Part shown: positions 14,141 through 63,950 of the stretch, in pieces
Layout of the letters: each line of letters begins with the position of its first letter
Numbering within the stretch: the stretch's first letter is position 1
Origin: Pyramidobacter sp. YE332
Lineage (GTDB): Bacteria; Synergistota; Synergistia; Synergistales; Dethiosulfovibrionaceae
Length of the DNA: 64,000 nucleotides
Direction: 5' to 3'
Assembly: GCF_033060595.1 (NCBI RefSeq)
Contig: NZ_CP133038.1
Location: 2,542,001 to 2,606,000 of the forward strand
Notes under the pieces: model-generated
Seen by the model: the letters and a program-made list of their open reading frames with translations, nothing else
What the model was told of the DNA's origin: nothing
The model's database searches: none
Position numbers and translations under genes: made by a program

Positions 14141-14247
14141 ATGTATTCCTCCATATTTTGTAATAAACCACGCGGGGCGGTCGTATGTTGAAAACGTTTT
14201 CTGTTTCACGCTGAATTTCGATCGTAAATTTCAATCGCCTGGCTCCG

Positions 14248-15852
14248 CTACATCGTCGCGAGCTTTTTGTACCACCAGTCTTTGAGCTCGTGAGCTTTTT
14301 TCGTCGCGCACAGCCCGCCGCTCATCATGCCGCGAAGCTCACGGGGCAGATACTGTTGTGTGTTGATCAGGGCGTCAAGGACCTCGTCAGGCGGGATGAT
14401 GCTCTCAATGCCGGCAAGGGCCATGTCGGCCGCGGCGAACGCATTCGCGACGCCGATAGCGTTGCGCTTGATGCACGGCACTTCGACAGGACCGGCGACC
14501 GGATCGCACACGAGCCCAAGGACATTTTTCAGCGCGAGAGCATACGCCTCCTGGACCTGCTTTGCCGATCCGCCGGCCAGCTGAACCAGTGCGGCTGCTG
14601 CCATAGCGGACGAAACGCCGATCTCGGACTGGCACCCGCCAAGGGCACCGGAAACGGGAGCGCGTTTTGCGATAAGGACGCCGGTCATTGCGCCGGCCAG
14701 GAGAGCGTCGATAATCTGGTCGTCGCTCGAACCAAGCTTTTCTGCCGCGGTCATCAAGCAGCCAGGCATGATGCCGCAGGAGCCTGCCGTCGGACAGGCG
14801 ACGACCTGACGCATGGAACCGTTACTCTCCATGACAGCAAGCGCACGTGCGATTGCTGTACCCACGACGGGGCCGGAAAGATTCTGATGCACGTCAACGA
14901 GATTCTTGAGCCTCGCGCCGTCGTCGCCAGGAGTCAGGCCGCCCAGCAGACGGTTATGACCAGCGAGGCCGTTCTCGACTGCCACCTTCATGGCATTCCA
15001 GGCGGTCAGCGTCTTTTTGCGCACCCACTCGCGGCTCACGCCGCTCCGGCGCTCTTCATACGCCTCCGCGGCAGAGGGGGCTGACGTCTTCTCAGCAAGG
15101 GCGAGCCAGCTGGCGAAGGTGTCGAACAGAGGAACCGGGTCTTTCAGTTTAAAATCCCACAGGTTGCGCAGAGGGTAAACGCGGATCGACGCGCCGCGAA
15201 GGGCGTTTATCTGCGGCTCTGTCAGGGCCGTCTCGGTCAGAACGGTGTGGAATGCTTTACCGTCGTACTCCGTGGCCGTCACGGACTGGACGGAACGGCC
15301 GAGGAACGCTTCGACTTCGCTTTGGCTGAAACGGCGGTCCGCAAGGAACAGCGCGCCGTCTTCAAAACCATGGAGCAGGACGGGCCAGCCGTCCACCTCC
15401 TGCATCTCGATCTCGCCGCCGCCTATGGACACGCCGGAGATGCGGTAATGGACGCCGTTCCGCACAAGCGCCATGTCGACGGTCATCGAGTTGCGCGTCG
15501 ATTCGGGGTCGGCATGATCGTGAACCGGAATGCCGCGTTCGGCGGCAATCCTGAGCATCTTCCCAATCAGGCCGGAGTCTTCGAGCTCACCGAGCAGACC
15601 AGCAACAACCGCGCCGTCGCTCGCATGGCCTTTGTACGTTGTCGAGAGCGCGCCGTAGAAATACAGATCGATCGCGTCCGGATTGCCTCCGATCAGCAAT
15701 CGTCCCATACGCCCGATACGCAGGACGCCCGCTGTGGCGGAGCTGGACGAACCGGTCATGACAGGTCCAATGGAATCGAAGAGGCTTGGCAGTCGGTCTG
15801 CACCGCCGCGATCACTGTTGATGCACGCGCCGCAAGTGCTGCAATCAGGCAT
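14248..15852 (-). CDS. L-serine ammonia-lyase, Fe-S type, fused beta-alpha chain (copy B)
   Basis: A 534-residue paralogue of copy A with the same domain order: a cysteine-containing N-terminal tail (CSTCGACINS), the beta motif TGSSSSATAGVLRIGRM, then alpha motifs CPTAGSCGIMPGC, GGCQSEIG and CDPVAGPVEVPC. In the beta motif the His of SSSHTAG is replaced (SSSSATAG), a difference from copy A that may shift substrate preference. GGAGGAATATCC precedes the ATG. It is the upstream gene of the pair, so both are probably cotranscribed. Adjacent OCD-family genes suggest a wider amino-acid degradation cluster. Confidence 0.83.
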   Translation of the reverse strand: MPDCSTCGACINSDRGGADRLPSLFDSIGPVMTGSSSSATAGVLRIGRMGRLLIGGNPDAIDLYFYGALSTTYKGHASDGAVVAGLLGELEDSGLIGKMLRIAAERGIPVHDHADPESTRNSMTVDMALVRNGVHYRISGVSIGGGEIEMQEVDGWPVLLHGFEDGALFLADRRFSQSEVEAFLGRSVQSVTATEYDGKAFHTVLTETALTEPQINALRGASIRVYPLRNLWDFKLKDPVPLFDTFASWLALAEKTSAPSAAEAYEERRSGVSREWVRKKTLTAWNAMKVAVENGLAGHNRLLGGLTPGDDGARLKNLVDVHQNLSGPVVGTAIARALAVMESNGSMRQVVACPTAGSCGIMPGCLMTAAEKLGSSDDQIIDALLAGAMTGVLIAKRAPVSGALGGCQSEIGVSSAMAAAALVQLAGGSAKQVQEAYALALKNVLGLVCDPVAGPVEVPCIKRNAIGVANAFAAADMALAGIESIIPPDEVLDALINTQQYLPRELRGMMSGGLCATKKAHELKDWWYKKLATM

Positions 15853-48956: not shown

Positions 48957-49176
48957 ACCTTCCGCCACCTCTTTCCATAAATTTTGCTCCGCGCCACAGA
49001 GTAATTTTAATATATTGAACATAAAGAGGCAATCTTCGGCAAAAAACTACGGCCCCACCCGGCAGATGCCGCAGCGCGCCTGATTCCGACAAAAACAAAA
49101 AAGAGCCCGGCGCAATGTCGGACTCCCTTGCGAATTCAGCCGCGCCACCGCAGCTGCGGGGAAGATCAACCAAAGA

Positions 49177-49386
49177 TCAATCCTTGGCGGGAATCACGTG
49201 AATCGCCTTGATCAACAAATGCACCCTGTCGCCGGGATTCAGATCCAGCTCGGCCACTGAATCACTTGTCAGCACGGAACTGAGTTTGCCTGCGGCATCA
49301 AGGGTGCATTCGATCTGCGACATAATCTCGCCCTTCTTCACCGCCTGGACCGTCGCCATCAGGTCGTTGCGAACGCCGTATTTCAT
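49177..49386 (-). CDS. Small TOBE/Mop-domain protein (molybdate/tungstate binding)
   Basis: A 69-residue single-domain protein: KYGVRNDLMATVQAVKKGEIMSQIEC, then LTSDSVAELDLNPGDRVHLLIKAIHV. This is the TOBE/Mop fold seen in molybdopterin- or molybdate-binding proteins, here freestanding. AAGGAGGC precedes the ATG. No molybdate transport gene is nearby. Confidence 0.82.
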   Translation of the reverse strand: MKYGVRNDLMATVQAVKKGEIMSQIECTLDAAGKLSSVLTSDSVAELDLNPGDRVHLLIKAIHVIPAKD

Positions 49387-49549
49387 AAAAAAGCCTCCTT
49401 CGATTTTATTTTGACCATAAATCAATATTAAACTATCATCGCCTCACCCGATTGTCAATGAATCTCTTATAAATATTATTCTTTTAAGAATAGATATCCA
49501 AACGCCGCCCAACATTTTTGCAGTTCAATCGCCGGCTCCGGACAAAAAA

Positions 49550-49573
49550 GTTCCGGCTCTTTCGAACCGGAAC
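49550..49573 (-). terminator. Terminator of the DUF4236 gene
   Basis: GTTCCGGTTCGAAAGAGCCG forms a compact stem on the minus strand, followed by a run of six T residues. Confidence 0.75.
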
Positions 49574-49590
49574 CCGTCTCTCCGAAAAAA

Positions 49591-49905
49591 TCATTTCGCG
49601 CCGCCCAAAAATCCACCGAGGAACGGCCCCGCATACTGCCAGATCAGATAAACCGCGATCACGATCAGCATGACGATCTTGAGAACCCGCTTGAAACCGG
49701 CGGTTCCCGCGTTCTTGGGCATCACGTCGCCCAACTTCTTGCGATAAGAAACGCCCTTGCCCAGGCCGAGATTTCCGAAGATGCCGTTCGTGCCGACGTT
49801 GATGCTCTTCCCCTTCGGCCCGATCGTGGCGCTGACGCCGGTTTTGCTGATGTTGATGCTGATGCCGGGCAGAATTTTGATGCTCTTTTTAAAGCGCAAC
49901 CCCAT
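49591..49905 (-). CDS. DUF4236 domain protein with C-terminal membrane helix
   Basis: A 104-residue protein. The first 55 residues are a DUF4236 domain (GLRFKKSIKILPGISINIS, GVSATIGPKGKSINVG). Residues 75-98 form one hydrophobic helix (VLKIVMLIVIAVYLIW), and the end is glycine-rich. AAGGAGG lies eight bases before the ATG. The family has no known function and is often found as short membrane-anchored proteins. Confidence 0.8.
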   Translation of the reverse strand: MGLRFKKSIKILPGISINISKTGVSATIGPKGKSINVGTNGIFGNLGLGKGVSYRKKLGDVMPKNAGTAGFKRVLKIVMLIVIAVYLIWQYAGPFLGGFLGGAK

Positions 49906-50270
49906 GTTGTCCAGCCTCCTTCGAATATATCCGCGCCCCGCAAAAACGCGCGTCCGCAAAACAGCCCTCCATATACGACTCAATTTGTACATAAATTATA
50001 ACTTACGGCAAGACGCTGTCAAATAAGTTTTCCGTGGAAGAACGCCATGAAGGAAGCCCCCGTCAGACCTTCAGTGCCAGCTGTTTCTCGCCGTTATGGA
50101 TACCCCGGCGGCAGCCCGTTGTAACGGCACGTGGTGTCGAAGATAAGTCGAGGACAAAGAGACAATTACCGTTTCAGGCCCATCTTCTCATCCAAGAAAA
50201 ACTTGGCGATGCTGAACGCGCAGCCTCTTTTGATAGTGCAACGAACTGTAGAAAAGGAGATGAAAAAGAT
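49906..50270. other. Intergenic stretch without a recognisable gene
   Basis: Between DUF4236 and the broken antitoxin I see only a ribosome-binding site (AAAAGGAGATG, at 50252) for the latter and low-quality open frames. The part at 50040-50200 may be decayed coding sequence that I could not identify. Confidence 0.4.
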
Positions 50271-50363
50271 ATGGCTTTTTCATTCGGCTGACCGATGAAA
50301 AAAAACATCTTGCCGCCAGCTACGTGAAGCTGCATTCGATGTTCATCGGAGAAGTCTTTAAAA

Positions 50364-52166
50364 CCTAGATTCCCGTAACCCCACACTAGAAAAAGACAAC
50401 CAGCCCAGCTGAATCCCGCTAAGACACTGAGTTTTGGCGGGTTAATTCTTGTCTTTTTCATCGTTACGTATTATCATACGTAACTAGATAAGGAGGCAGG
50501 AAGATGGCTTTGGTGAAGCAGCTAGATAAAAGAAGCGGGATCACGTATGTTTACGAATCGGTATCGTATTGGGACAAGGAGAAGAAGCAAGGGCGCTCCA
50601 AGCGAAGGTTGGTAGGCAGATTAGATCTCCAAACGGGTGAAGTCGTAGCGACAGATGGTCGTGGGAAACGTCGCAGCACACAGGCAGCGGATCCTCCTGC
50701 CAAGCAAGGGGCGGTTCCCGTGTCGACACCCGATCGACTCTTCTTCGGAGCGACCTACCTGTTTGACCAGATCGGGGAAGTGACCGGAGTGACGGAAGAT
50801 CTCAAGGCCTGCTTCCCCGGGCAGTACAAGCAACTCCTCTCCATCGCCTACTACCTTATCCTGGAAGACCAGAATCCGCTCTTTCGTTTTAAGAAGTGGG
50901 GCAAGCTCCACCGCCATCCTTACGGCAAGGATATCCCTTCCCAGCGGAGTTCTGAATTATTCCAGTCCATAACGGAAGAAGGCAAGATGAAGTTCTTCCG
51001 TCTCCAAGGGAAAAGGCGTGTGGAAAAAGAGTACTGGGCTTATGACAGCACCTCTATTTCCAGCTATTCCGAAGCCCTGAGAGAAGTCCGGTACGGGAAC
51101 AACAAGGACGGTGAGAAACTGCCGCAGGTGAATCTGGCTCTACTGTTTGGCGAAAAGTCCGGCTTGCCCTTCTATTACCGGAAACTGGCCGGAAACATTC
51201 CGGATGTGAAGACCATTCGCGAGCTGCTGAGGGAACTGGACATTCTTGGTTACTCCAAGGTGAAGCTCGTCATGGACAGGGGGTATTACAGTGCGGACAA
51301 CATTAATGCCTTATACAAAGCGCATGTGAAATTTTTGTGTGGAATCTCAACCGCTCTGAGCTTTGCCAAAGATTTCATCCGTGAGCTTGGATCCCAAAAG
51401 GACCGTTACGCCGCCTACAACAGCAGGCTGGAACTGTATGTGTTCAGCAAGACGATCGCCTGGGACTACGAACAGGAAAGGCCGTATAAGGGAGATGTTC
51501 TGAGCGGAAAGAGAAGAATGTATCTGCACCTGTACTTCAATCCCGACAAACTGGCGGATGACGGCAAAGCTTTGAACCGCAGGTTGGACAGCCTCAAGGA
51601 GGAACTGCTGAGCGGTCACCGAAAACCGGAACACGAAAAGGACTACCGAAAATATTTCAAGGTGAAAGAAACTCCCAAACGCGGCATTGCGCTTGACTAT
51701 AAGCAAGAAGCGATGGACGCGGCCTGCGAGCGCTACGGTTTCTTCGCCCTCATTAGCAACGAAGTCAAAGATCCCGTAACAGCCATCCAGCTTTACCGGA
51801 TGCGCGACGTGGTCGAAAAGGCATTCTGGAACGTGAAAGAACGATTGAATCTGCGAAGAACCCTGGTTTCTTCCGAAAGAGCGCTTGAAGGCAAGTTTTT
51901 TGTCGAGTTTCTCTCACTTATTTACCTTTCCTACCTCAAGAAAAAAATGGAAGAAAACGGACTATATGCAGATTACACCATGCACGAGTTACTCGACGAA
52001 CTGGATGTCATTGAGTGCTTTACAGAGCCCGGGAAGGCCCTATACCAGGAGAAGTGCTCATGAAACAGGAAGAGATCTACAGAGCGATGGGCGTGACACC
52101 TCTCTTGGCTAAACCAGAAAGTTGAGTTAACGATGAACTCCTAGGGTGGTGTTTCGGGAATCCAGG
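50364..52166 (+). mobile_element. IS1634-family insertion sequence (1803 bp) with TTAAAA target duplication
   Basis: Imperfect inverted ends (CCTAGATTCCCG at the left, CGGGAATCCAGG at the right, similarity extending about 26 bases). TTAAAA is present on both sides (50358-50363 and 52167-52172). It lies inside the antitoxin reading frame. Confidence 0.9.
50504..52063 (+). CDS. IS1634-family transposase
   Basis: A 519-residue transposase with DDE core residues in AYDSTSISSYS, KLVMDRGYYSADNINAL and MRDVVEKAFWNVKERLNLRR. AAGGAGGC lies before the ATG. At the 3' end the stop overlaps an ATG whose frame gives KQEEIYRAMGVTPLL, which is the usual C-terminus of the family. The last 20 or so residues have therefore been shifted out of frame. 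The element may still be active, as this tail is short. Confidence 0.9.
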   Translation: MALVKQLDKRSGITYVYESVSYWDKEKKQGRSKRRLVGRLDLQTGEVVATDGRGKRRSTQAADPPAKQGAVPVSTPDRLFFGATYLFDQIGEVTGVTEDLKACFPGQYKQLLSIAYYLILEDQNPLFRFKKWGKLHRHPYGKDIPSQRSSELFQSITEEGKMKFFRLQGKRRVEKEYWAYDSTSISSYSEALREVRYGNNKDGEKLPQVNLALLFGEKSGLPFYYRKLAGNIPDVKTIRELLRELDILGYSKVKLVMDRGYYSADNINALYKAHVKFLCGISTALSFAKDFIRELGSQKDRYAAYNSRLELYVFSKTIAWDYEQERPYKGDVLSGKRRMYLHLYFNPDKLADDGKALNRRLDSLKEELLSGHRKPEHEKDYRKYFKVKETPKRGIALDYKQEAMDAACERYGFFALISNEVKDPVTAIQLYRMRDVVEKAFWNVKERLNLRRTLVSSERALEGKFFVEFLSLIYLSYLKKKMEENGLYADYTMHELLDELDVIECFTEPGKALYQEKCS

Positions 52167-52694: not shown

Positions 52695-52706
52695 GTCGCT
52701 TTTAGG

Positions 52707-52978
52707 AGCCCATCTCCGCGTGAGCGGAGGTTTGTACATCAAGGACAAACGCGGAAGAAAACGGCAAGGTCCATCTCCGCGTGAGCGGAGTTTTGCACGG
52801 GAAGCCTCCGAAAACAACATCAACTGGAGGTCCATCTCCGCATGAGCGGAGGTTTGCCAGAGCGGCCTGCGCTTTTTCAAGCTCGCTCAGGTCCATCTCC
52901 GCATGAGCGGAGGTTTGCAGAGCCCCTGCCGCTGCAGATAATCGATCAAAGGTCCATCTCCGCATGAGCGGAGGTTTG
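52707..52978 (-). CRISPR. CRISPR array: 5 repeats of 28 nt, 4 spacers of 33 nt (type I-E-style repeat)
   Basis: Repeats start at 52707, 52768, 52829, 52890 and 52951, an exact 61-base period. On the minus strand each reads CAAACCTCCGCTCATGCGGA then GATGGACC, a hairpin repeat with the GATGGACC-like 3' end seen in type I-E arrays. The first and second repeats (low coordinates) have variants, so they mark the old trailer end, and the leader should lie at 52979 upward. Spacers differ from each other. The array is transcribed in the same direction as the neighbouring cmr operon. Confidence 0.95.
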
Positions 52979-53504: not shown

Positions 53505-54608
53505 TTATGGTTCTTCGATGAGCTTCAGGGTGTAAATCTTTTTTTCGAGATCACACGCGATGACTTCAGCCCGAAAAGTTTCCCCCTCACGAGCGTGGGG
53601 AATTCCCGGAGAAAAGCTGACGTTCTGCGCGCTGTCTTCGTCGACAAGTTTATATCGAGGCTTAATCTTCCCTTTGACTTTACGGGAACCGCAGCACATT
53701 GCTTCAACGATGTCGCCCTCGATATACCTCATGCCGCCCTTTCGGGCCATTTCCCGCAGAGTCTCCCGGCTTGCTTCCTGCGCTGACTGCTGACGGTTCA
53801 GCCGTCCGTATCCGGAACTGCGCTTCGCGCCAACGCCGCGTTCGCCCAAGACATGCTCGAACAGTTTCTCGATTCCCGCCAGAAGGTCTTTTTTCCTGCC
53901 GGCGTCGGGTTCTTCGCAGTCGCAACCGACCAGAAACGTACCTCTGACGGAAACGAAGCTGACGGGAACGGGGTCGTCAAAATCGCTGGGGACAGCAGGC
54001 TCTTGCTTGCTGTAATAGCCGCTGTGATGGCACGTGACGACGTCGTCGTGAAGACAGTTTTCAAGGCTCTCGGGGGTGATCCAGGCGTCGTGAAAGCGCA
54101 CGTATCCCTTCGCCGACGCTCCGTCCGCGGCGGCGCTTCCGAAGATAACTTTGCTGTTTTCGAGCCACGCGGCGGCGGCCTCCCCGCCGGGCGCAGCGTT
54201 TTTCAGCGCCTCGGCGCAGTAAGCGGCAAGAACGCCCTTCAGAGAGCTGGCGGGAATGATGGGAACGCCATACGTGTGTTCCAGGGAAAGTCCGTTTTCC
54301 AACACGTTTTTTCCGCCCAGGCCGACGGCCAGAGGCGCCGTCGTGCGGAACTCGAGCAGCATAGCTCCAGCGGCCTTAAAGGCGTTTTCACGCCGCCGAT
54401 AGGACGTTTCATAAACGTCTTTCGCACATTTCAGCGCCTTTTTCATCTGCTCGTAAAGCCTCGTACGAGCCATGATCGCGCTATCCCCGCCGCGGGCATC
54501 TTTGCTCGCGTCTTCTATTTCTGCCAGAAAACGCTCCATGACCAGCGAAGCATTTGAAGCGCCGTCATCCTTGCACAAGCAATCAAGCGCTTTTCGGCAA
54601 CTGTTCAT
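53505..54608 (-). CDS. cmr6: Type III-B RAMP protein Cmr6 with C-terminal extension
   Basis: A 367-residue protein. The RAMP part is clear: LEFRTTAPLAVGLGG, YGVPIIPASSLKGVLAAYCAE, VRFHDAWITP and the glycine-rich GVGAKRSSGYGRL. Cmr6 caps the backbone of the Cmr complex. After about residue 295 come 70 further residues (YIEGDIVEAMCCGSRKVKG, then ACDLEKKIYTLKLIEE) resembling an OB/S1-like beta domain. The start overlaps the cmr5 stop by ATGA. It is the last gene of the operon. Confidence 0.9.
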   Translation of the reverse strand: MNSCRKALDCLCKDDGASNASLVMERFLAEIEDASKDARGGDSAIMARTRLYEQMKKALKCAKDVYETSYRRRENAFKAAGAMLLEFRTTAPLAVGLGGKNVLENGLSLEHTYGVPIIPASSLKGVLAAYCAEALKNAAPGGEAAAAWLENSKVIFGSAAADGASAKGYVRFHDAWITPESLENCLHDDVVTCHHSGYYSKQEPAVPSDFDDPVPVSFVSVRGTFLVGCDCEEPDAGRKKDLLAGIEKLFEHVLGERGVGAKRSSGYGRLNRQQSAQEASRETLREMARKGGMRYIEGDIVEAMCCGSRKVKGKIKPRYKLVDEDSAQNVSFSPGIPHAREGETFRAEVIACDLEKKIYTLKLIEEP

Positions 54609-54988
54609 CGGGGGCCTCCGTTTTCCGCGCCGTCAAGGCTTTCGCAGCAGCGTTTGATCCAGGCGGCAGCTTCCAATGCCCGGCGGCTCAGACGCATGTA
54701 CTCCTTCAAATCGGCTTCTCTGGCGCTCGCGACCAAGTCGTCGGAACATCCCGTTTCGACGTTTTGCAAAACTTCCTGCAAACCTTCAAGGTACTTGGTC
54801 TGTCCCTTCGCGTCGGCAAACGTCGCCGCCTGGACGAGGCCGCAGCTGTGGATCAAGCACGGGAACGAAAGGGCAAAGCGTTTATAGTCTTCATATTTCC
54901 CGCCTGCGCAAACTTTTTTCACGGCGGTAAAAGCGGCCCGCGCCATTTTTTGCCCGTTGGTCAGCATAACTTCATCTTTTTCACTCAT
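54605..54988 (-). CDS. cmr5: Type III-B small subunit Cmr5
   Basis: A 127-residue helical protein with NGQKMARAAFTAVKKVC, YKRFALSFPCLIHSCGLVQA and KYLEGLQEVL, the recognisable Cmr5 pattern. It lines the target-RNA channel. The start (MSEKDE) overlaps the cmr4 end by eight bases. Confidence 0.92.
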   Translation of the reverse strand: MSEKDEVMLTNGQKMARAAFTAVKKVCAGGKYEDYKRFALSFPCLIHSCGLVQAATFADAKGQTKYLEGLQEVLQNVETGCSDDLVASAREADLKEYMRLSRRALEAAAWIKRCCESLDGAENGGPR

Positions 54989-55901
54989 GAAGCTCACCGG
55001 CCTTTTCGATGTCCTTGAACAGGCAGCGGACGTGCCCCTTGCCGGTAGTCGCTTTGCCGCCCAGCTGCAGGGAGAGCTCGGAACCGCAGAATTGCTTTAA
55101 AAGCTCCCCGCTCGTGGGCGTTTCGTCCTCCGGCGCGCCGTAAATTTTATCGCACCAGACCCGGCCGACAAGGAGCGTCTCGACCGGCAGCGTTTCCTCA
55201 TACCACAGCGCCCCGTCGGCAGCCGCGCCGGTTTCCTGGTCGACCTTGATGTGCGGCGTCACTTCCGTCCCGGCTTCGCACAGGAAGGTAAAGATGTCGT
55301 CGTGGACGACGGCGAAGCGCGCTTTAAAAGTTTTTTTCCAGCCTTCGTCATCGCCGAACAGTGTCTGGGCGATTTTTTCCGCCCAGTTTTCGGCGTTTTC
55401 GTTAAAAGCCGAGGCAAGGTCAAGCTCTTCAAGATACATCTTCCCGCCCGGCTCTTTGGTAAGCGCCGTGTCTTGAGCCGTAAAAGCCTGAAATTCGTCA
55501 GGAAGAATCACGGGCGGCGCGGAGCGCTCTTTGACGTCGCGGGCACAGCGCTCCAGGCAGAAGGGCGACGTTATCCAGGCGAAGGTGCCGTAAAAGCTGC
55601 GCACGGGCAGGCAGAGGATATGCGCGTCAGTGAAGACGAGCGAACCGGAATTGCTGCAATCATCGCCCGTCGCGCCGAAAGCGATCCTGGCATCGCCTTC
55701 TCGTTTTTCCGAATTGTTGGAAACGTTGTGATGGGCGGCAATCACGCCTTTGACGCTGCTGCCGGGGATATAGGGCCAGTTGGTCACCTTCTCGCGCACG
55801 ACCGGCAGATCGATATAGCCAAGTCCGCGTCCCGCGCCGATATGAATCGGGCTGAGCGCATGAAGCCAATAACTTTTTTCAACGAAAGTTTTTTCTCCCA
55901 T
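54981..55901 (-). CDS. cmr4: Type III-B backbone RNase Cmr4 (Cas7 group)
   Basis: A 306-residue RAMP protein. The N-terminus HALSPIHIGAGRGLGYIDLP carries Asp31, matching the catalytic Asp that cuts target RNA every six bases. Further motifs are PYIPGSSVKGVIAAHH, SGSLVFTDAHILCLPVRS and the C-terminal GGKATTGKGHVRC. AGGGGAGAGG precedes the ATG, 15 bases after cmr3. Confidence 0.94.
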   Translation of the reverse strand: MGEKTFVEKSYWLHALSPIHIGAGRGLGYIDLPVVREKVTNWPYIPGSSVKGVIAAHHNVSNNSEKREGDARIAFGATGDDCSNSGSLVFTDAHILCLPVRSFYGTFAWITSPFCLERCARDVKERSAPPVILPDEFQAFTAQDTALTKEPGGKMYLEELDLASAFNENAENWAEKIAQTLFGDDEGWKKTFKARFAVVHDDIFTFLCEAGTEVTPHIKVDQETGAAADGALWYEETLPVETLLVGRVWCDKIYGAPEDETPTSGELLKQFCGSELSLQLGGKATTGKGHVRCLFKDIEKAGELHE

Positions 55902-55915
55902 GTTCGTCCTCTCCC

Positions 55916-57061
55916 CTATTTATGTTCTCGCCAGCCGCCCCACAACGCCAGGCCGAATCCGTCGAGCCGATCCTGCGGCTCGTCGCAGACGGAACGGAGC
56001 CAGACCCGATCAGGGACAAAGTTCCCCGCAACAACTTCGAAAAAATAGACGCTGCCGGCCGGGACCATGCGCCGCATGGGCTTGGGGCCGGTTCTGCCCT
56101 TTTCGTGACACCAGCCGGAAAGAGGCTGCCAGCGACCGACAACGGCGGATACCAGCCGCACCCGCACATCCGTACCAGGCAAAATTCCTTCGCGAGGCGG
56201 GGTCTTATCCCCGCCGATCCAGCCGGGATACCAGCCGTTCGCAAACAGCGCCGGCGTCGCCAAGATCATGCGGATCCGGTCACCACCGCGCAGACAGTCC
56301 AGGCAGGGGGGGCAGCGCCATGCCGCGTCGTCATCTGTCTGCCGAAAATCGGCAAGACGACGCATCCCGCCGACGGGAGCGGTAAAATCTCCAAGCAAGC
56401 GGGCCGCTCGTTCGTCGATCTCCAGTGCCGCCGCAATGGAGGCGTATGTTCTCTCCGCCGTCCGGTGCACGAAATCGAGTCCCGTGGAAGAAAAGATCTT
56501 CCCGTCGCCGGCAGCGCCCGTTTCCGGCGCGATGCTGACGTGAGTACGTTCGTCCTTGGGAATGTCGTCGAGCCAGTCGTCGCCGAAATCAACGCGCCCG
56601 TCGCGCCCGTAGCGCTCCGTCAGTCCTCTTTTTCCCTCGCACAGCCAGCGGGCGTAAAGATCCAGCGACCAGTATCCGCCCCGTTTTTGGGGCTTGAAGT
56701 TTTCCTCGGTATCGGGCGACGGCAGCAAAAGCCCTTCAAGCGGCATGTCCGCAGACTGCTCGTCTTCTAACTCCGCAGGAAGGAGCTGGTACGGCTTGCC
56801 TTCCTGAGTCTGGACGAAATCCAGAGGCCGGGGAAAATAAAATTTGCCACCGATCTCGGGAAACGGACCGCGCACAGCGATCGAGCGCAGATATGACGGA
56901 GTCTCCCCGGTCAGCTTCCAGAGCGCGGTGCGCACGGAACCGGCGGCCACCGTCTGCGTCAGCCAGTCAAGGGAACGGACGCGCGCGCCGCCGCCTCCGG
57001 AGCCGAAGGTGCGCGCATCGCGAGCAATCAGCGGCTCGATGGGAATCATCCGGTATTTCAT
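55916..57061 (-). CDS. cmr3: Type III-B protein Cmr3 (Cas5 group)
   Basis: A 381-residue RAMP protein with MIPIEPLIARDARTFGSGGG (family start), GSVRTALWKL, RGPFPEIGGKFYFPRPLDF, the central VSIAPETGAAGDGKIFSSTG, and PVGGMRRLADF. It binds the crRNA 5' tag region with Cas10. The start overlaps the Cas10 C-terminal frame by ATGA. The start at 57061 is chosen over a longer frame because of that overlap and the family alignment. Confidence 0.93.
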   Translation of the reverse strand: MKYRMIPIEPLIARDARTFGSGGGGARVRSLDWLTQTVAAGSVRTALWKLTGETPSYLRSIAVRGPFPEIGGKFYFPRPLDFVQTQEGKPYQLLPAELEDEQSADMPLEGLLLPSPDTEENFKPQKRGGYWSLDLYARWLCEGKRGLTERYGRDGRVDFGDDWLDDIPKDERTHVSIAPETGAAGDGKIFSSTGLDFVHRTAERTYASIAAALEIDERAARLLGDFTAPVGGMRRLADFRQTDDDAAWRCPPCLDCLRGGDRIRMILATPALFANGWYPGWIGGDKTPPREGILPGTDVRVRLVSAVVGRWQPLSGWCHEKGRTGPKPMRRMVPAGSVYFFEVVAGNFVPDRVWLRSVCDEPQDRLDGFGLALWGGWREHK

Positions 57062-57675
57062 CGTTCGGCCTCCTTCTGCGGAGTCGGCTTCCGCGTATAG
57101 CGGCGGGCAAACGCAATCCACTGGCCGACGACAAGCTCATCGGCGAGTTCTTTGACCCCCGCGCCATCCCCGAGCTTGCGTCCGATGTAGCGGGCGATTT
57201 CCGCCTCGTTTTCGGCGGAAAGGTCCGTGTCCTTGCGCGCGAAAATGCGCATGACGTCGGCTTTCACAGCTTCGGCCAGCGACTCTCTGTCGTCCCAGTT
57301 CTCGTAAAAGCGGGCCGTCTCGAGCAGTTCGTGCGGGAACTTATCGGGAATCTCGCCTCCGGCAAAGCGGTCGCCCCACCAGTCAAGCCGTTCGGCCAGA
57401 GAACGCTGAACCAAAGGCTTCTCTCGTCCGTCGTTTTCGCTGGCAGCGGGCCACTGCTCGCGCACCGTTACGGCAATGTTGCCGCGAGCGCGGACGGCAA
57501 CGGCCAGTCCGTTCCGATCCCTGCCGACGGCGGCTTCGCCGTGGAGCCCGTTCTTGGCGTCGCTCTCGGCGCGGCGGGCAAACTTGAGCAGCAACTCCAG
57601 ATCTTCCAGAGCATGAGCGATGGAAACGCCGATGGAAAGCGTCGGCCGGCAGCCGAAAGGAACGTCGGAACTCAT
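57058..57675 (-). CDS. cmr2: Cas10/Cmr2, C-terminal fragment
   Basis: A 205-residue frame that continues Cas10 after the GGDD-bearing fragment. It opens with PFGCRPTLSIGVSIAHALEDLELLL, the strand and helix that follow GGDD in Palm2, and then the helical D4 domain (LDWWGDRFAGGEIPDKF, ARFYENW, ARYIGRKLG). It starts with an ATG that overlaps the previous stop as ATGA. Either ribosomes reinitiate here and two chains assemble, or one base has been lost or gained and the gene is broken. Confidence 0.88.
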   Translation of the reverse strand: MSSDVPFGCRPTLSIGVSIAHALEDLELLLKFARRAESDAKNGLHGEAAVGRDRNGLAVAVRARGNIAVTVREQWPAASENDGREKPLVQRSLAERLDWWGDRFAGGEIPDKFPHELLETARFYENWDDRESLAEAVKADVMRIFARKDTDLSAENEAEIARYIGRKLGDGAGVKELADELVVGQWIAFARRYTRKPTPQKEAER

Positions 57676-58934
57676 GATATGCCGAATTCGGACCGCAGTT
57701 CCCTGGCGCAGTCAAGAGCGGTATCCAACGGCAGGAAGGCAAGCACGTCATCTCCTCCGGTGTAAACGGTAACGCCGTAATGTCCCTTGATGACGTTTCT
57801 GGCCCGACAGGCAAAATCGGCAAGCTTTTTTGAAAAGCAACGGTGCGATTCGGCGTCTTTCATGTTGTCCAGAATCGCTCCCATGCGGTCTCCGTCGGCG
57901 CTGAGCACGGCAAGATACGGCTCGCAGGGGCGGTCGCAGGGCTTCAGTTTCGACAGCACGCCGACAATTTTACGGCACTGCTCCGCAACTCTCTCAGCTA
58001 CGTCCTTCCCTTCGTTTTCGGCATCCTTTTTCATGCCGGCATAGCGTCCGCGCATCAGCGCTTCGCCGCCGTAAGGGAATTTCTCGTAAAAATCCGCCCC
58101 CACCGCGGAGAGAACGCCGCACAAATTCAGTTCCTCGCATGCCTCGAGGATCGTCTTGCGGTCCGCTTCTTTCATCTTGCCAGCCGCGGCAAACACGCCG
58201 CGCACCCAGGGATCGACGGCAACGCGGGAAACAGGAGGAAAATTCTTCGCGTCGGAGATGCGCTTGATCACGCCGATGGCGTCGAGCGCCTCGTTCCGCT
58301 TGAGGCGCAGCGTGCGGGTCATGGCGCGCTGCTGCGCGTCGGAAAGACTCTTGCCATCTTTGAACACGCTCTCGCGCAGTCCGTCCAGCGAGCTTTTGGC
58401 CACGCGATCCGCGCACGGGGAAGGGCTAAAGTCACGGATGTTCTTGCGCGCGGCCAGAAGTTTGGCCGCGGTTCTGCGTGCTTCGTCGTACGGACGTCCG
58501 TCGAGAGGCGTCCAGACGCAGTAAAATTCGATAATATCGTCCAGCTGCCCGTTCCAGCGCTCCATGACGACGAGATCTCCGACTTTTCCGCCCTCTTTGC
58601 CAAGCGGCGTGTCGAGCGCTTCGCGCCCGTACTCAGCCAGCCGCGCCTCCGCGGCCTTCTTTGCCTCGTTTTTGATGCGCCCCAGTTCCTCGGCGTCGGC
58701 GGCAGTCACTTTGGCAAGGATCACGTTGGCGATGCCGTCCGACAAGGACGAGTCTTGCACAGCGTCGGGAAAAATCAGAGATCCGCCCAGATCCCTCACG
58801 CAGCAGGCCACGGCCTTGCTCAGCTCGGAAAGCATCCGCGACCCCATCCAGAGGTCGTGCGTGCGGCGCGCGGCGGCGATAAAATCCTGCACGGGGCCGA
58901 TGGCGATCTGCAGTAAATAGTTCCGTTCGCTCAC
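57672..58934 (-). CDS. cmr2: Cas10/Cmr2, N-terminal fragment with GGDD cyclase motif, no HD domain
   Basis: A 420-residue frame that begins directly with Palm1 (LLQIAIGPVQDFIAAARRTH, DLWMGSRMLSELSKAV). The N-terminal HD nuclease domain of many Cas10 proteins is absent. Palm2 has SADGDRMG (345-352) and YTGGDDVLAF (GGDD 393-396), the catalytic motif for cyclic oligoadenylate synthesis. It stops 24 residues later (SEFGIS). GTG start, overlapping the cmr1 stop by GTGA. With the next frame it makes up a Cas10 of about 620 residues. Confidence 0.92.
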   Translation of the reverse strand: MSERNYLLQIAIGPVQDFIAAARRTHDLWMGSRMLSELSKAVACCVRDLGGSLIFPDAVQDSSLSDGIANVILAKVTAADAEELGRIKNEAKKAAEARLAEYGREALDTPLGKEGGKVGDLVVMERWNGQLDDIIEFYCVWTPLDGRPYDEARRTAAKLLAARKNIRDFSPSPCADRVAKSSLDGLRESVFKDGKSLSDAQQRAMTRTLRLKRNEALDAIGVIKRISDAKNFPPVSRVAVDPWVRGVFAAAGKMKEADRKTILEACEELNLCGVLSAVGADFYEKFPYGGEALMRGRYAGMKKDAENEGKDVAERVAEQCRKIVGVLSKLKPCDRPCEPYLAVLSADGDRMGAILDNMKDAESHRCFSKKLADFACRARNVIKGHYGVTVYTGGDDVLAFLPLDTALDCARELRSEFGIS

Positions 58935-60154
58935 TTCCCCGTCACCTCCTTAAAACCTTTTTCTCTTAAATAGGCGCGGAACGCCTCCAACGCGTTGCCG
59001 GTGCTGGAACGATTTTCCATCGGAGAACCCTTGTAATTCGCGAACTTTGCCCCCTGGTAGTCGCTGCATTCTTTATCCAGTTTATTCAGTCTTCCCCCAA
59101 GTTTGTTTCCGCTCAACCTCAGACCACAGGAAAGATCCGGTTCGGGCAGAAAGACAGCCATGCTCAGAACACGGCCATCCTTCAAGCGCAGCGGACGCAG
59201 AATCACCGGGCTGCTCATGCGCTGCGCACCGACAGGGAGCAGCTGCTGGCACGACTTCGGATCGCCCGACGTCTTAAATCTAAAGCCGATCGGCATGCCG
59301 AAGACCGCGCGGGGGAAACCGTACGGATGATCCGGTGGATAAACAGCCTCATGTCTGGGATCGCGCTGGCCCGTCAGCTTACGGATCGTGTCCGCCTCGG
59401 GCCAGCGCGAGCGGCCGCGTGTCCCGTTTCGCCCTACGTCTTTTCCCTGCCTAAACTCGCGCAAACACCCGACAGCCTCCTTCCAAGCGACAATGCTTTG
59501 CTTGGAGTCGCACTCTTTCGTCCACACGCGCAGTCCGCACGAGACGGCCAAAGCGCGCGCTTCTTCTTCGTTCTCAAAAGCCAGTTCAGGGCAGAAAACC
59601 GCCCCGCAGCCACGCCGCGTGCGCGCGCCGACGCCGCCGAAATTGGCCCAGGCGCGCAGACTGCGTTCCAACTGTTCCTTGAGCTCGGAGCACAGCTGCG
59701 GCTCGCAGACGACGCCCAGATCAAAATTAAACTCGGGAAGGACTCCTGATTTATCCCTAAACGGGAAGAGGGCGTACTGAGCGTCCTTCACCGGTTTCAA
59801 TACGACAGACTGGCCTGCCCCCTCTTTTATGAACACTCCGACGCGGCTGGTATGCTGCAAAGCGGCTTTGTCCCCGTCGGATGACGCCGCGAACACTCCG
59901 CCCCAGAGCGCGCATTCCTTTTCTTTCAACGCGTTGCCCCGCAGGCCGCGAACGCCGTGCAGCAACCGCCACCAAAAGCGCAGCTGCCCCCGTATGGAAG
60001 GCGCCCGCACGGGAAATTCTCTGCCAACCTCTCCGGCCTTGGCGCCGCCGCCGAACATGGGCGTGATGACGCTGCACGCGTAAACCTTGCATTCCCGCGC
60101 GGGCAAGGCCCCCAATCGAAGCGCTCCGCCAAGTTTTTCCGCCATACTCCTCAC
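58931..60154 (-). CDS. cmr1: Type III-B RAMP protein Cmr1
   Basis: A 407-residue RAMP protein. The family hallmark VRAPSIRGQLRFWWRLL is intact, preceded by CSVITPMFGGGA, and a GGVGARTRRGCGAV stretch follows. Cmr1 sits at the 3' end of the crRNA. GTG at 60154 has GGAGGAGG seven bases upstream; an in-frame ATG (MAEK) lies three codons later. It is the first gene of the operon cmr1-cas10-cmr3-cmr4-cmr5-cmr6, all joined by overlaps of a few bases or gaps under 15. Confidence 0.92.
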   Translation of the reverse strand: MRSMAEKLGGALRLGALPARECKVYACSVITPMFGGGAKAGEVGREFPVRAPSIRGQLRFWWRLLHGVRGLRGNALKEKECALWGGVFAASSDGDKAALQHTSRVGVFIKEGAGQSVVLKPVKDAQYALFPFRDKSGVLPEFNFDLGVVCEPQLCSELKEQLERSLRAWANFGGVGARTRRGCGAVFCPELAFENEEEARALAVSCGLRVWTKECDSKQSIVAWKEAVGCLREFRQGKDVGRNGTRGRSRWPEADTIRKLTGQRDPRHEAVYPPDHPYGFPRAVFGMPIGFRFKTSGDPKSCQQLLPVGAQRMSSPVILRPLRLKDGRVLSMAVFLPEPDLSCGLRLSGNKLGGRLNKLDKECSDYQGAKFANYKGSPMENRSSTGNALEAFRAYLREKGFKEVTGK

Positions 60155-60414
60155 TCTGCCGCCTCCTCCCAAACAGACAAAACAACCGCGCACACCGCGG
60201 ACGGCGCGCTGCGCCCGACACCTTTCGACCTTGTCCTGCCGTATTTCATTTCAGCAAGTCAAATATACTCTAACATATTAAAAATTTTTGAGCCCACCGC
60301 GTCCATGCTCCCGCAAATACCATGCGCATTCCGCTTGATCCCCGGAGGCGCCACGCCGAATCCGCGCCTCGACGCGGCGTTGCCTGCGCGCCTGCCGTCT
60401 GGGGCGCTCATCGA
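60155..60414 (-). promoter_or_regulatory. Promoter region of the cmr operon with motif shared with the CARF-RelE gene
   Basis: On the minus strand AATATGTTAGAGTATATT lies at about 60263-60280, roughly 110 bases before cmr1. Nearly the same string, in the same orientation to its gene, occurs before the CARF-RelE gene. The rest (60290-60410) is GC-rich with no gene. Confidence 0.5.
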
Positions 60415-62616
60415 TCAAGAGCCCGTTCGCTCGACAACGTGAGCCTTGAACCGCAGCACGTCTTTCAGCAGTTTCTCGACGCTTCGATATTCTTTTCGAA
60501 TGTCTTTTTCGATTTCTGGCAGCGTGCCGTTTTCAGCGTTTCCATCCAGGCCGTAAATGTCGATTCTCACGCAGTCGCCTGAATCCCACACCGGCAGCAC
60601 AAAGCCCACCTGACGGTGTTTGTCGAAATGAAGCGCCTGTTCGCGCTTGAACGCGTAACGGTTCGCCAGCGACAGCGCCAGAAAGCGCCGCAACGACTGA
60701 GGATCACGCTGCACGGCCAGCCAGCCTTCCGTTTTTTTCATACCTCCCAGCGTCCGGAAAACGCCTTTGTAAATTTCTTTGCACAGGTATTTCATTCTGT
60801 CCACGTCGCTTTTTTCCTGCGTCAATTTCTGCACATTGACTTTCAGACCCTTAGGCAGCGCATCCGCGTACCCTTCAAGCTGGCGGCCGACAAAATTCGC
60901 TTCGTTTTCCGTGCGCCGATGCCGCGCTTCCATGTACTCCTGACTGACCGTGCGGTCGGCCTGCACGTCGCAGGCGTCGATAATACGCATCAGCGCCGTC
61001 AGCCGCAGAAAACGCTGAATTATCGCATCCCGCGTTTCCCCGGTCCGGACATGTCGAAAATCCTCCACGCGCAAAATCTTGTCAAGCCTCTCTTCAAGCG
61101 GTTCCAGCGTCTGTTTAAAGTCGTCCGGACACAGCGTTTCGCCAACCGGTTCAACGACCTCATTCGCCTGCGCTGTGCCGTCGGCGCAGCACAGTTTCGT
61201 GTAATGACGGTGATATTCGGCTACCAGCGGGACATAACGGGCCAGAAACGCCTGCTTTTCCCCGTTCTCGTCAAGCGGTCTTCCAGGCGCTCCGCCCGGT
61301 CTGAAATAGCGATCGGGCTCCTCGCGCAGCAGCGACGCCGTCAGCAGATGGTGCATCTCGCGCACCGCCGAGGGAAACAGGCCGAGCGGAAAATCTTTGT
61401 CGCATCCGCGCTCCGAGGCCCCCGCGTAGGTCAGAGCCGTGTGGCCGATGTCATGCAGGTAAATCGACGCGATCAGCAGCGCCAACATCTCGGGATGCTC
61501 GTCGTCGAAACCAGCTTTTTTCAGAGGTTCTTCCGCGCAGCGAAACAGATTGACGGTGAACTCCATCAGACGTTTGGAATGCCGGCGGCTGTGCTCGACC
61601 GTTTCCGGGATCTGGTCGCCCAGCCACAGGTGTTCCCACTTGCAGACCAAAAGATTTTCGAGATATTCCGCCCATTTCCTGCCTTCGCCGCCGCAGCGCC
61701 GCAGCCGCTCGAACAGAGCCTGCCCCGTGCCGAACGGCCTTTTGCGCATCGCATCATAACTTTTAATTAGGGCCCCCGCCATTTTCCCAGAATCCCGCAC
61801 CCACTGCGGCAAAGAGGGCGCCTGCATCATCTCCGGGTTTCTGTCGAGCGCTCTGAGCATATTGATCTCCTCGTCCAGCGCGGCGTAAGCATATCCCAGC
61901 GGCATGCTCATCAGCTCATACGCCTCGGGAGAATCTTCAAACGTATACAGACAAGGCAGCCCATGAAGCTGCGCGTATGCGGCGGCAAACGCGGAAATCG
62001 CCTTGTAGCCGCCTGTGGAACAGATCACGACCTCTTCCCCGTTCTCCTTCTTCTCAAGACATTCGTCAAATTCACGATAGAGATCGACAACAGACTGGTT
62101 GAAGCTCTCCTTGTCCCGAACGTCGATGGCGACCGGACGTATACCTCCCTTTTCGCCCTTTTTCCCCTCTTCGCAGACCAGCTTCTTGATTCTTCCTTTA
62201 AAGCAGAGTCTGACCAGTCTTTCGAGAAATACCCGAACACAGAGCGCCGTCAGTTTCGACACCGCCGTTTCCGAGGGAAGCAGAAGGACGTGCAGCCGCT
62301 CGAACGCAGCTTCGCCATCCCTCTCAAGGATGCGCCGCAGCCAGCGGTACAGCGTCTGCACTTCCGCCGAAGGGAAACGAAAATCCCGTTTGTCCAGCGC
62401 CTTTTTTTCCTCGCCAGACAACGATGAAGAATCCAGTATCTTCATCAAAAGCTCCGTCTTGGGAGACGCCGAACCTCCGATAAGTTCCCTGACGCCTTTC
62501 TCAGAAGCGTCGCAAAGGCGTTTCGCCTCCTGCTCCTTTTTTTCCGCACTCAGATTCTTGTCCAGCCAGAATGCAGCGGACATTCCCACCGTGCAAATCA
62601 CCGTAACGCGCTTCAT
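60415..62616 (-). CDS. CARF-HD fusion protein, candidate cyclic-oligoadenylate effector
   Basis: A 733-residue protein. Residues 1-240 form a CARF-like Rossmann domain: VTVICTVGMSAAF at the start and EEVVICSTGGYKAISAFAAA (CSTGG 199-203), the usual ligand-binding loop of the APE2256/TIGR02619-type CARF group. After a helical linker, residues 335-560 hold an HD phosphohydrolase-like domain: His342 (EHSRRH), His388-Asp389 (YLHDIGH), His422/423 (REMHHLL), His469/471 (AEYHRHY) and Asp547/550/554 (RIIDACDVQADR). All expected metal ligands are present. The C-terminal 150 residues are unassigned. It is upstream of cmr1 on the same strand. Confidence 0.82.
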   Translation of the reverse strand: MKRVTVICTVGMSAAFWLDKNLSAEKKEQEAKRLCDASEKGVRELIGGSASPKTELLMKILDSSSLSGEEKKALDKRDFRFPSAEVQTLYRWLRRILERDGEAAFERLHVLLLPSETAVSKLTALCVRVFLERLVRLCFKGRIKKLVCEEGKKGEKGGIRPVAIDVRDKESFNQSVVDLYREFDECLEKKENGEEVVICSTGGYKAISAFAAAYAQLHGLPCLYTFEDSPEAYELMSMPLGYAYAALDEEINMLRALDRNPEMMQAPSLPQWVRDSGKMAGALIKSYDAMRKRPFGTGQALFERLRRCGGEGRKWAEYLENLLVCKWEHLWLGDQIPETVEHSRRHSKRLMEFTVNLFRCAEEPLKKAGFDDEHPEMLALLIASIYLHDIGHTALTYAGASERGCDKDFPLGLFPSAVREMHHLLTASLLREEPDRYFRPGGAPGRPLDENGEKQAFLARYVPLVAEYHRHYTKLCCADGTAQANEVVEPVGETLCPDDFKQTLEPLEERLDKILRVEDFRHVRTGETRDAIIQRFLRLTALMRIIDACDVQADRTVSQEYMEARHRRTENEANFVGRQLEGYADALPKGLKVNVQKLTQEKSDVDRMKYLCKEIYKGVFRTLGGMKKTEGWLAVQRDPQSLRRFLALSLANRYAFKREQALHFDKHRQVGFVLPVWDSGDCVRIDIYGLDGNAENGTLPEIEKDIRKEYRSVEKLLKDVLRFKAHVVERTGS

Positions 62617-62831
62617 ACGCTGCCCTTCTTCCTCGACGAGCCAGCCGTCCGACGACTGCCCGTTTCATGCCGTCGAAAACTTTTACAGTTACGCCGCTTC
62701 AACAGACAAAAGGTTGTTTTTTCGTGATTTTTCAATCTTAAGCAGTTATACCTAATATATGTTAGTATAATACTATGCGTCCAAACTTTTCTCAAGAAAA
62801 AATTTTCATCGCGTTCGAAAGGATCGTGCTC
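62617..62831 (+). promoter_or_regulatory. Divergent promoter region between CARF-HD and CARF-RelE genes
   Basis: AT-rich. TATATGTTAGTATAATACT (62756-62774) includes a strong TATAAT and matches the cmr operon motif (TATGTTAG then TATA). It lies about 60 bases before the CARF-RelE ATG. A weak inverted repeat TATAC...GTATA frames it. Confidence 0.5.
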
Positions 62832-63950
62832 ATGAGAACAATTTATGTGGTAACCTGCGGCACAAGCATTCTTACTAACGGGGCGTCGGAGACCGATCGG
62901 ATTTTTCTGCGCGAAAACGCCAACAAGCTTGAACAGGACTATTCCCCGGAGGAGCGCGACCGGCTTGAAAATATCGCCGCTTCGCGGCGCGAGACTCTGC
63001 TCGGGGAAAGCGACGAAGCCCGGATATGCCGCTGTTCCGCCGAACTGAACGGCTTCCTCAACTACCGCCGCACCAGTCCCGCAGCGCAGAACAGCGCCGG
63101 AGACATGGCGTACTTCGTCTGTACCGACACGTTTCAGGGCAAACTGACCGCTCGAATCCTCGCCGACTGGAGCAGAAAACGCGGAATGGCAGCCGACGTC
63201 GTAAAAGTCGAGGACCTGAATACCGCTTCCGTCGAATCGTTTCACCGCGGCGTCAACAACCTCATCGAATGGTGCCGCACCACGCTGTCTGCAGCCCGGG
63301 AGAGCGGCTCCCGCATCGTTTTCAACCTGATCGGCGGTTTCAAAACGCTGCAGGGATACATGCAGACGCTGGGAATGATCTATGCTGACGAGATCTTCTA
63401 CATTTTTGAATCAGGGCACGAGATCATCACCATCCCCCGTCTGCCGCTCGACATCTCCTCCGCGGCCCAAAAGGCGATCCGCACCCACCTTGCCGTCGTA
63501 CGCCGCATGAATTACCGCGATCTGCCCGCCGCAGAGTGCGCCGGCCTGCCGGAAACCATGCTGACTGTCATGGACGGACAATGTATTCTGTCGGTATGGG
63601 GCAAAGTGATCTTCGACGAGGTCAAGAAAGAACTGTACCAAGAGAAACTGCAGCCGCCAATGATCGATTCGTTCGAGTTCTCCCCCGGGGCGAAAAATGA
63701 CGCCGAAAAGCTCGATCCGCAGCAAAGAAGAAGGCTGAATGACGCCATCGACAACTTCGGCGCCTGTCTGGAAACGGGACAAAATCTGCAAAGACTCGAC
63801 TTCCGCGCACTGAAAGGGAATCCCAAGCCTCCGTCCACGCACGAATTCAACATATGGAGCACGCAAAACGGCTGGCGCGCCTTCTGTCATTACGAACAAG
63901 ACCGTCGAAAATGGGTCATCGACCGCTTCGCCGTCGGCATCGGCCACTGA
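62832..63950 (+). CDS. CARF-wHTH-RelE protein, Cami1-like ribosome-dependent mRNA interferase
   Basis: A 372-residue protein. Residues 1-200 are a CARF domain: IYVVTCGTSILTNGA at the start, FVCTDTFQGKLTARIL in the middle and IVFNLIGGFKTLQGYMQT (GGFKT 168-172). Residues about 205-275 look like a winged helix (AQKAIRTHLAVVRRMNY, LSVWGKVIFDEVKKEL). Residues 278-372 are RelE-like: AEKLDPQQRRRLNDAIDNF, RALKGNPKPPSTHEFN, GWRAFCHYE and WVIDRFAVGIGH. This order is that of Cami1, which cA4 activates to cut A-site mRNA. AAAGGA precedes the ATG at 62832. It is divergent from the CARF-HD gene. Confidence 0.85.
   Translation: MRTIYVVTCGTSILTNGASETDRIFLRENANKLEQDYSPEERDRLENIAASRRETLLGESDEARICRCSAELNGFLNYRRTSPAAQNSAGDMAYFVCTDTFQGKLTARILADWSRKRGMAADVVKVEDLNTASVESFHRGVNNLIEWCRTTLSAARESGSRIVFNLIGGFKTLQGYMQTLGMIYADEIFYIFESGHEIITIPRLPLDISSAAQKAIRTHLAVVRRMNYRDLPAAECAGLPETMLTVMDGQCILSVWGKVIFDEVKKELYQEKLQPPMIDSFEFSPGAKNDAEKLDPQQRRRLNDAIDNFGACLETGQNLQRLDFRALKGNPKPPSTHEFNIWSTQNGWRAFCHYEQDRRKWVIDRFAVGIGH

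Follow-up and report, generated by a model that had tools for sequence, protein, structure and literature searches.

A type III-B cas10 gene divided inside Palm2 by a recent single-base frameshift in a rumen Pyramidobacter species

Frameshifted cas10 alleles are already known from type III CRISPR systems. In Staphylococcus epidermidis, single-base frameshifts in cas10 are selected during plasmid transfer and represent a route to the loss of type III immunity; the escaper alleles of strain RP62a have a laboratory origin in plasmid conjugation, and the transconjugants carrying them are defective for CRISPR immunity (PMC3784566). No natural two-chain or split Cas10 was described in the literature we searched, which mostly comprised papers available without subscription. 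Two chains encoded by overlapping frames could in principle both be obtained by termination-reinitiation, as at ATGA gene pairs, and when the Shine-Dalgarno (SD) sequence was removed from E. coli gene pairs, one pair lost reinitiation entirely and three others showed a drop of 60-90% (PMC6728339).

The window analyzed here, a 64,000-nucleotide stretch of the genome of Pyramidobacter sp. YE332, carries a type III-B Cas10/Cmr2 gene that shares its domain order, GGDD motif, cmr1-6 context, and associated CARF effectors with described members of this family (TIGR02577; PDB 9arw, 3w2v, 4w8y). Whereas a sister gene from another genome of the same genus (G009) is a full-length member of type III-B Cas10/Cmr2, the window gene is broken inside Palm2 by one base. 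As in the RP62a escaper alleles, the change is a single-base deletion in cas10; unlike them, the window allele is common to two natural isolates and terminates, as it happens, in an ATGA overlap. This overlap has the same geometry as the ATGA gene pairs mentioned above and offers a possible route to both chains, but the window pair was born from one broken gene and the SD pairing of its second start is weak.

The type III-B (Cmr) gene set of the window is complete, with Cmr1, Cmr2 in two pieces, Cmr3, a RAMP protein at the cmr4 position, Cmr5, and Cmr6 encoded on the minus strand in the order cmr1, cmr2, cmr3, cmr4, cmr5, cmr6. Two CARF genes precede the operon: that of CARF-HD, on the minus strand as well, and the divergently oriented one of CARF-RelE. 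The CARF-HD protein is expected to act as receptor for the cyclic oligoadenylate made by Cas10. The features of the locus are as follows:

62775..63950, plus strand: CARF-RelE ancillary effector, 391 aa, intact (PDLC01934 CARF_RelE, E=2e-118)
60415..62616, minus strand: CARF-HD ancillary effector, 733 aa, intact (PDLC01933 CARF7--CARF_HD, 1123 bits)
58931..60193, minus strand: cmr1, intact, GTGA overlap with cmr2 (RAMPs, TIGR01894)
57672..58934, minus strand: cmr2/cas10 N-terminal fragment, 420 aa, GTG start, from the Cmr2_N region into Palm2 as far as the helix after the GGDD hairpin (PF12469; PF22335 positions 1-82 of 133; TIGR02577 positions 354-463)
57679..57680, minus strand: site at which the alignment with the unbroken sister gene (G009, locus L005) shows the one-base difference, four bases upstream of the ATGA
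57672..57675, minus strand: ATGA overlap, combining the stop of the first fragment and the start of the second
57058..57675, minus strand: cmr2/cas10 C-terminal fragment (cmr2C), 205 aa, remainder of Palm2 from the PTLSIGVSIAH strand onward and C-terminal domain (TIGR02577 positions 477-510; PDLC01422 positions 367-493)
55916..57061, minus strand: cmr3, intact, ATGA overlap with cmr2C (PF09700)
54981..55901, minus strand: cmr4, intact, assigned from gene order and a RAMPs match
54605..54997, minus strand: cmr5, intact (PF09701)
53505..54608, minus strand: cmr6, intact (TIGR01898)
52706..52978, minus strand: CRISPR array beside cmr6, 5 I-E-like 29-nt repeats with 32-nt spacers

The preliminary description of this locus had proposed a Cas10 split into two ATGA-overlapping frames inside Palm2, and both minus-strand frames, with the overlap joining them, are indeed found among the open reading frames of the window. 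The 420-aa frame ends in YTGGDDVLAFLPLDTALDCARELRSEFGIS followed by its stop, the 205-aa frame begins with MSSDVPFGCRPTLSIGVSIAH, and the junction reads GGCATATCATGAG. The GGDD cyclase motif is present in the first chain (YTGGDDVLAF). Placement of the break between the GGDD loop and the next core strand, leaving Palm2 incomplete in each chain, is borne out by the family profile, which divides there: an uninterrupted single-chain Palm2 is absent from the window (profile break at 463/477) and present in G009, where the sister protein matches positions 2-510 in one chain. The helix after the GGDD hairpin and the PTLSIGVSIAH strand are presumptive assignments made by reference to the general palm/GGDEF fold. 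Both the alignment and a survey of the phylum place the break site in a loop of variable length and sequence among relatives, and the junction keeps essentially all native residues. An AlphaFold model of a Fretibacterium homologue, based on a three-sequence alignment, was set aside (mean pLDDT 44).

Further 4-nt overlaps occur in the operon at cmr1/cmr2 (GTGA), cmr2C/cmr3 (ATGA), and cmr5/cmr6 (ATGA), and the resemblance of the junction to other couplings, also pointed out originally, is thus real. As evidence of a designed coupling, the ATGA is weak. Of the 1884 ways to delete a single base from the intact sister gene, 765 (40.6%) lead to a stop that overlaps the native frame in an ATGA, and in 86% a start codon of the native frame lies no more than 20 nt from the new stop. 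The overlap appears because the new TGA arises in the shifted frame at an internal Met codon that was already there, and a Met codon followed by A automatically gives TGA in one shifted frame. Only 3.4% of one-base deletions are as clean as the observed one (ATGA with 12 nt or less of shifted sequence), a figure that is post hoc since the finding was picked for its clean look.

Comparison with relatives shows that the split is real and derived, a single-base frameshift so far confined to one rumen Pyramidobacter species. This follows from the continuous cmr2 of G009 (629 aa; DNA 98% identical to the window), which has one extra base relative to the window between 57679 and 57680, four bases before the ATGA, and from the outgroup genes (L012, G002, and G005), all three of which are continuous through the same loop. 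A search of 188 Synergistota genomes with TIGR02577 yielded 39 with a match, and the frame beyond the GGDD motif was read in 29 of the loci returned. In the window genome and in strain C12-8 (G011), a stop occurs 23 residues past GGDD, while 26 of the 27 other Palm2-bearing loci examined have a frame extending at least 200 residues past GGDD and the remaining one leaves its contig. Across the 188 genomes, a Palm2 break at this point was seen only in these two strains of one species and was not met in diverged lineages; a split-gene search of plasmids and a junction-pattern scan of viral contigs likewise returned no match. The locus is therefore not an established split architecture but the result of a real, recent one-base frameshift. 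Among the origins first considered, the recent frameshift is the one upheld by the same-genus relative and the outgroups, whose continuous genes speak against a long-established split, and looking for the same split in relatives turned up nothing beyond YE332 and C12-8. The cmr2C fragment differs between the window and G009 by 1 synonymous and 6 nonsynonymous codons, too few for a relaxed-selection test, and the genes of the two split strains show zero differences, too few for a test of selection on both chains.

Strain YE332 is a cattle-rumen isolate with a genome of 2,795,328 bp in two contigs, and it was assembled from PacBio RS II reads only (PMC11008178), a method prone to single-base indels. 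This had made a base-calling or assembly error a natural candidate for the origin of the split, yet the probability of such an error is now vanishingly small: strain C12-8 (locus L011; contig NZ_MUHX01000040, name NODE_..._cov_751), assembled independently, is identical to the window over 2277 bp, junction included, as well as in each of the nine reading frames of cas and CARF genes, and the site is free of homopolymer runs. The neighbouring CRISPR arrays differ (5 vs. 24 repeats), which indicates that these are different strains, with a published average nucleotide identity of 99.01% (PMC11008178). The presence of the same junction in a separately sequenced strain thus excludes a base-calling error. 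Restoration of a full-length Cas10 through slippage or programmed ribosomal frameshifting is also very improbable. While the downstream frame is −1 relative to the upstream frame, as in bacterial −1 frameshifting, the junction includes neither a slippery heptamer nor a homopolymer, and the continuous relatives need no such signal; we rejected this candidate on the lack of a slippery motif.

Our preferred reading, to which we assign a probability of about 75%, is that the frameshifted cmr2 yields little or no complete cyclase, that signalling is lost or strongly reduced, and that this loss is tolerated. The main product would be a 420-aa Cas10 ending after the GGDD hairpin and the next helix and lacking both the end of Palm2 and the C-terminal domain, without which the first chain should not be a complete cyclase alone. 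At the Met codon turned start codon, reinitiation would probably be poor at best, so that little or no complete cyclase would be formed. The anti-SD pairing ahead of this second ATG amounts to −3.5 kcal/mol, compared to −17.8 for cmr2, −11.8 for cmr3, and a mean of −5.4 kcal/mol for arbitrary internal start codons. A second, compensating Cas10 was sought in the genome and not found; with cmr2 as the only detectable Cas10, cyclic-oligoadenylate signalling is most likely lost or much reduced, and the target-activated signal to CARF-HD and CARF-RelE would be affected to that extent. Type I-C and type I-E cas operons are present in the genome, hence the loss of III-B function need not remove CRISPR immunity. 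Tolerance of the loss may be due to these two systems, and losing a costly type III response could also be neutral or even favoured.

Some observations nevertheless run counter to a loss of signalling. No decay is visible in the remaining operon or in either effector gene, all of which are the same in the two strains; translation can be coupled at ATGA pairs even where no strong SD is present; and native residues are nearly all kept around a break located in a length-variable loop, an outcome as clean as only 3.4% of deletions would give. It is thus conceivable, if unlikely, that Cas10 functions as two chains, with reinitiation at the overlapping ATG and assembly of the fragments in the Cmr complex. 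Palm2 would then be complete but nicked in a surface loop, the second frame supplying the rest in trans. Equally doubtful is the corollary that this arrangement was created freshly by one mutation and that the Cmr complex still makes cyclic oligoadenylates. The position of the break in a loop that varies in both length and sequence among relatives, together with the near-absence of lost native residues, makes a two-chain Cas10 possible, and the ATGA coupling like those of cmr2/cmr3 and cmr5/cmr6 is consistent with it. So is the intact remainder of the locus, a point on which the preliminary description was right: none of the other cmr genes or the two CARF genes is interrupted, and C12-8 has the same sequences. 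Against a two-chain Cas10 stand its derivation within one species, with no other occurrence in the 188-genome phylum survey, the weak anti-SD pairing ahead of the second start, and the ease with which an ATGA arises (41% of random one-base deletions).

If the preferred reading of a plain loss is correct, the locus would be another natural type III system devoid of its signalling subunit while the complex and effector genes are intact, and annotation based on gene presence would score such a locus as complete. Should the two chains instead reassemble, Cas10 would prove to tolerate a break at this point, and the case would show how a single mutational step can give rise to split enzymes.

Further observations concern Cas10 loci and effector genes of the phylum. 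The cmr2 of G009 includes a 12-bp in-frame tandem duplication (VRDRVRDL; L005 around 1635-1650), absent from the window and the outgroups. In G007, a genome of the same family, Cas10 has a large in-frame internal deletion (L016 6325-7518; 397 aa vs. 567 in G005), Cmr3 is apparently frameshifted (L016 5369-6328), and a second cluster of RAMP-like genes adjoins. The Cmr2-type Cas10 match of another Synergistota genome, G096 (L056), is spread over two frames of 322 and 265 aa with stop codons inside, which suggests repeated Cas10 loss in the phylum. Relative to their G009 counterparts, the window's CARF-HD and CARF-RelE each show 95% identity and exceed cmr3-cmr5 in divergence; nonsynonymous changes make up about half of the altered codons.

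The CRISPR array beside cmr6 is a contracted version of the 24-repeat array of C12-8 (L015 about 14200-15660). All four window spacers are found in the C12-8 array in the same order, as spacers 3, 21, 22, and 23, so that the 17 intervening spacers are missing in the window, while the difference of two spacers on the leader side reflects either gain in C12-8 or loss in the window. No spacer of the window or C12-8 array is shared with G009. Despite the type III-B effector next to them, the repeats beside the Cmr operon resemble type I-E ones (29 nt, ATGGACC end). A distinct I-E cas operon, which has CCCCGC-type repeats of its own, is located at genome position about 45-54 kb (L059). Elsewhere in the window, a DDE transposase gene (50504-52063) lies inside a segment (50364-52166) that G009 lacks; in that genome the flanking stretches, corresponding to 49176-50363 and to 52167 onward, adjoin directly. 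Window position 52112 is where the C12-8 contig breaks off, which would fit the presence of the same repeated element in that strain.
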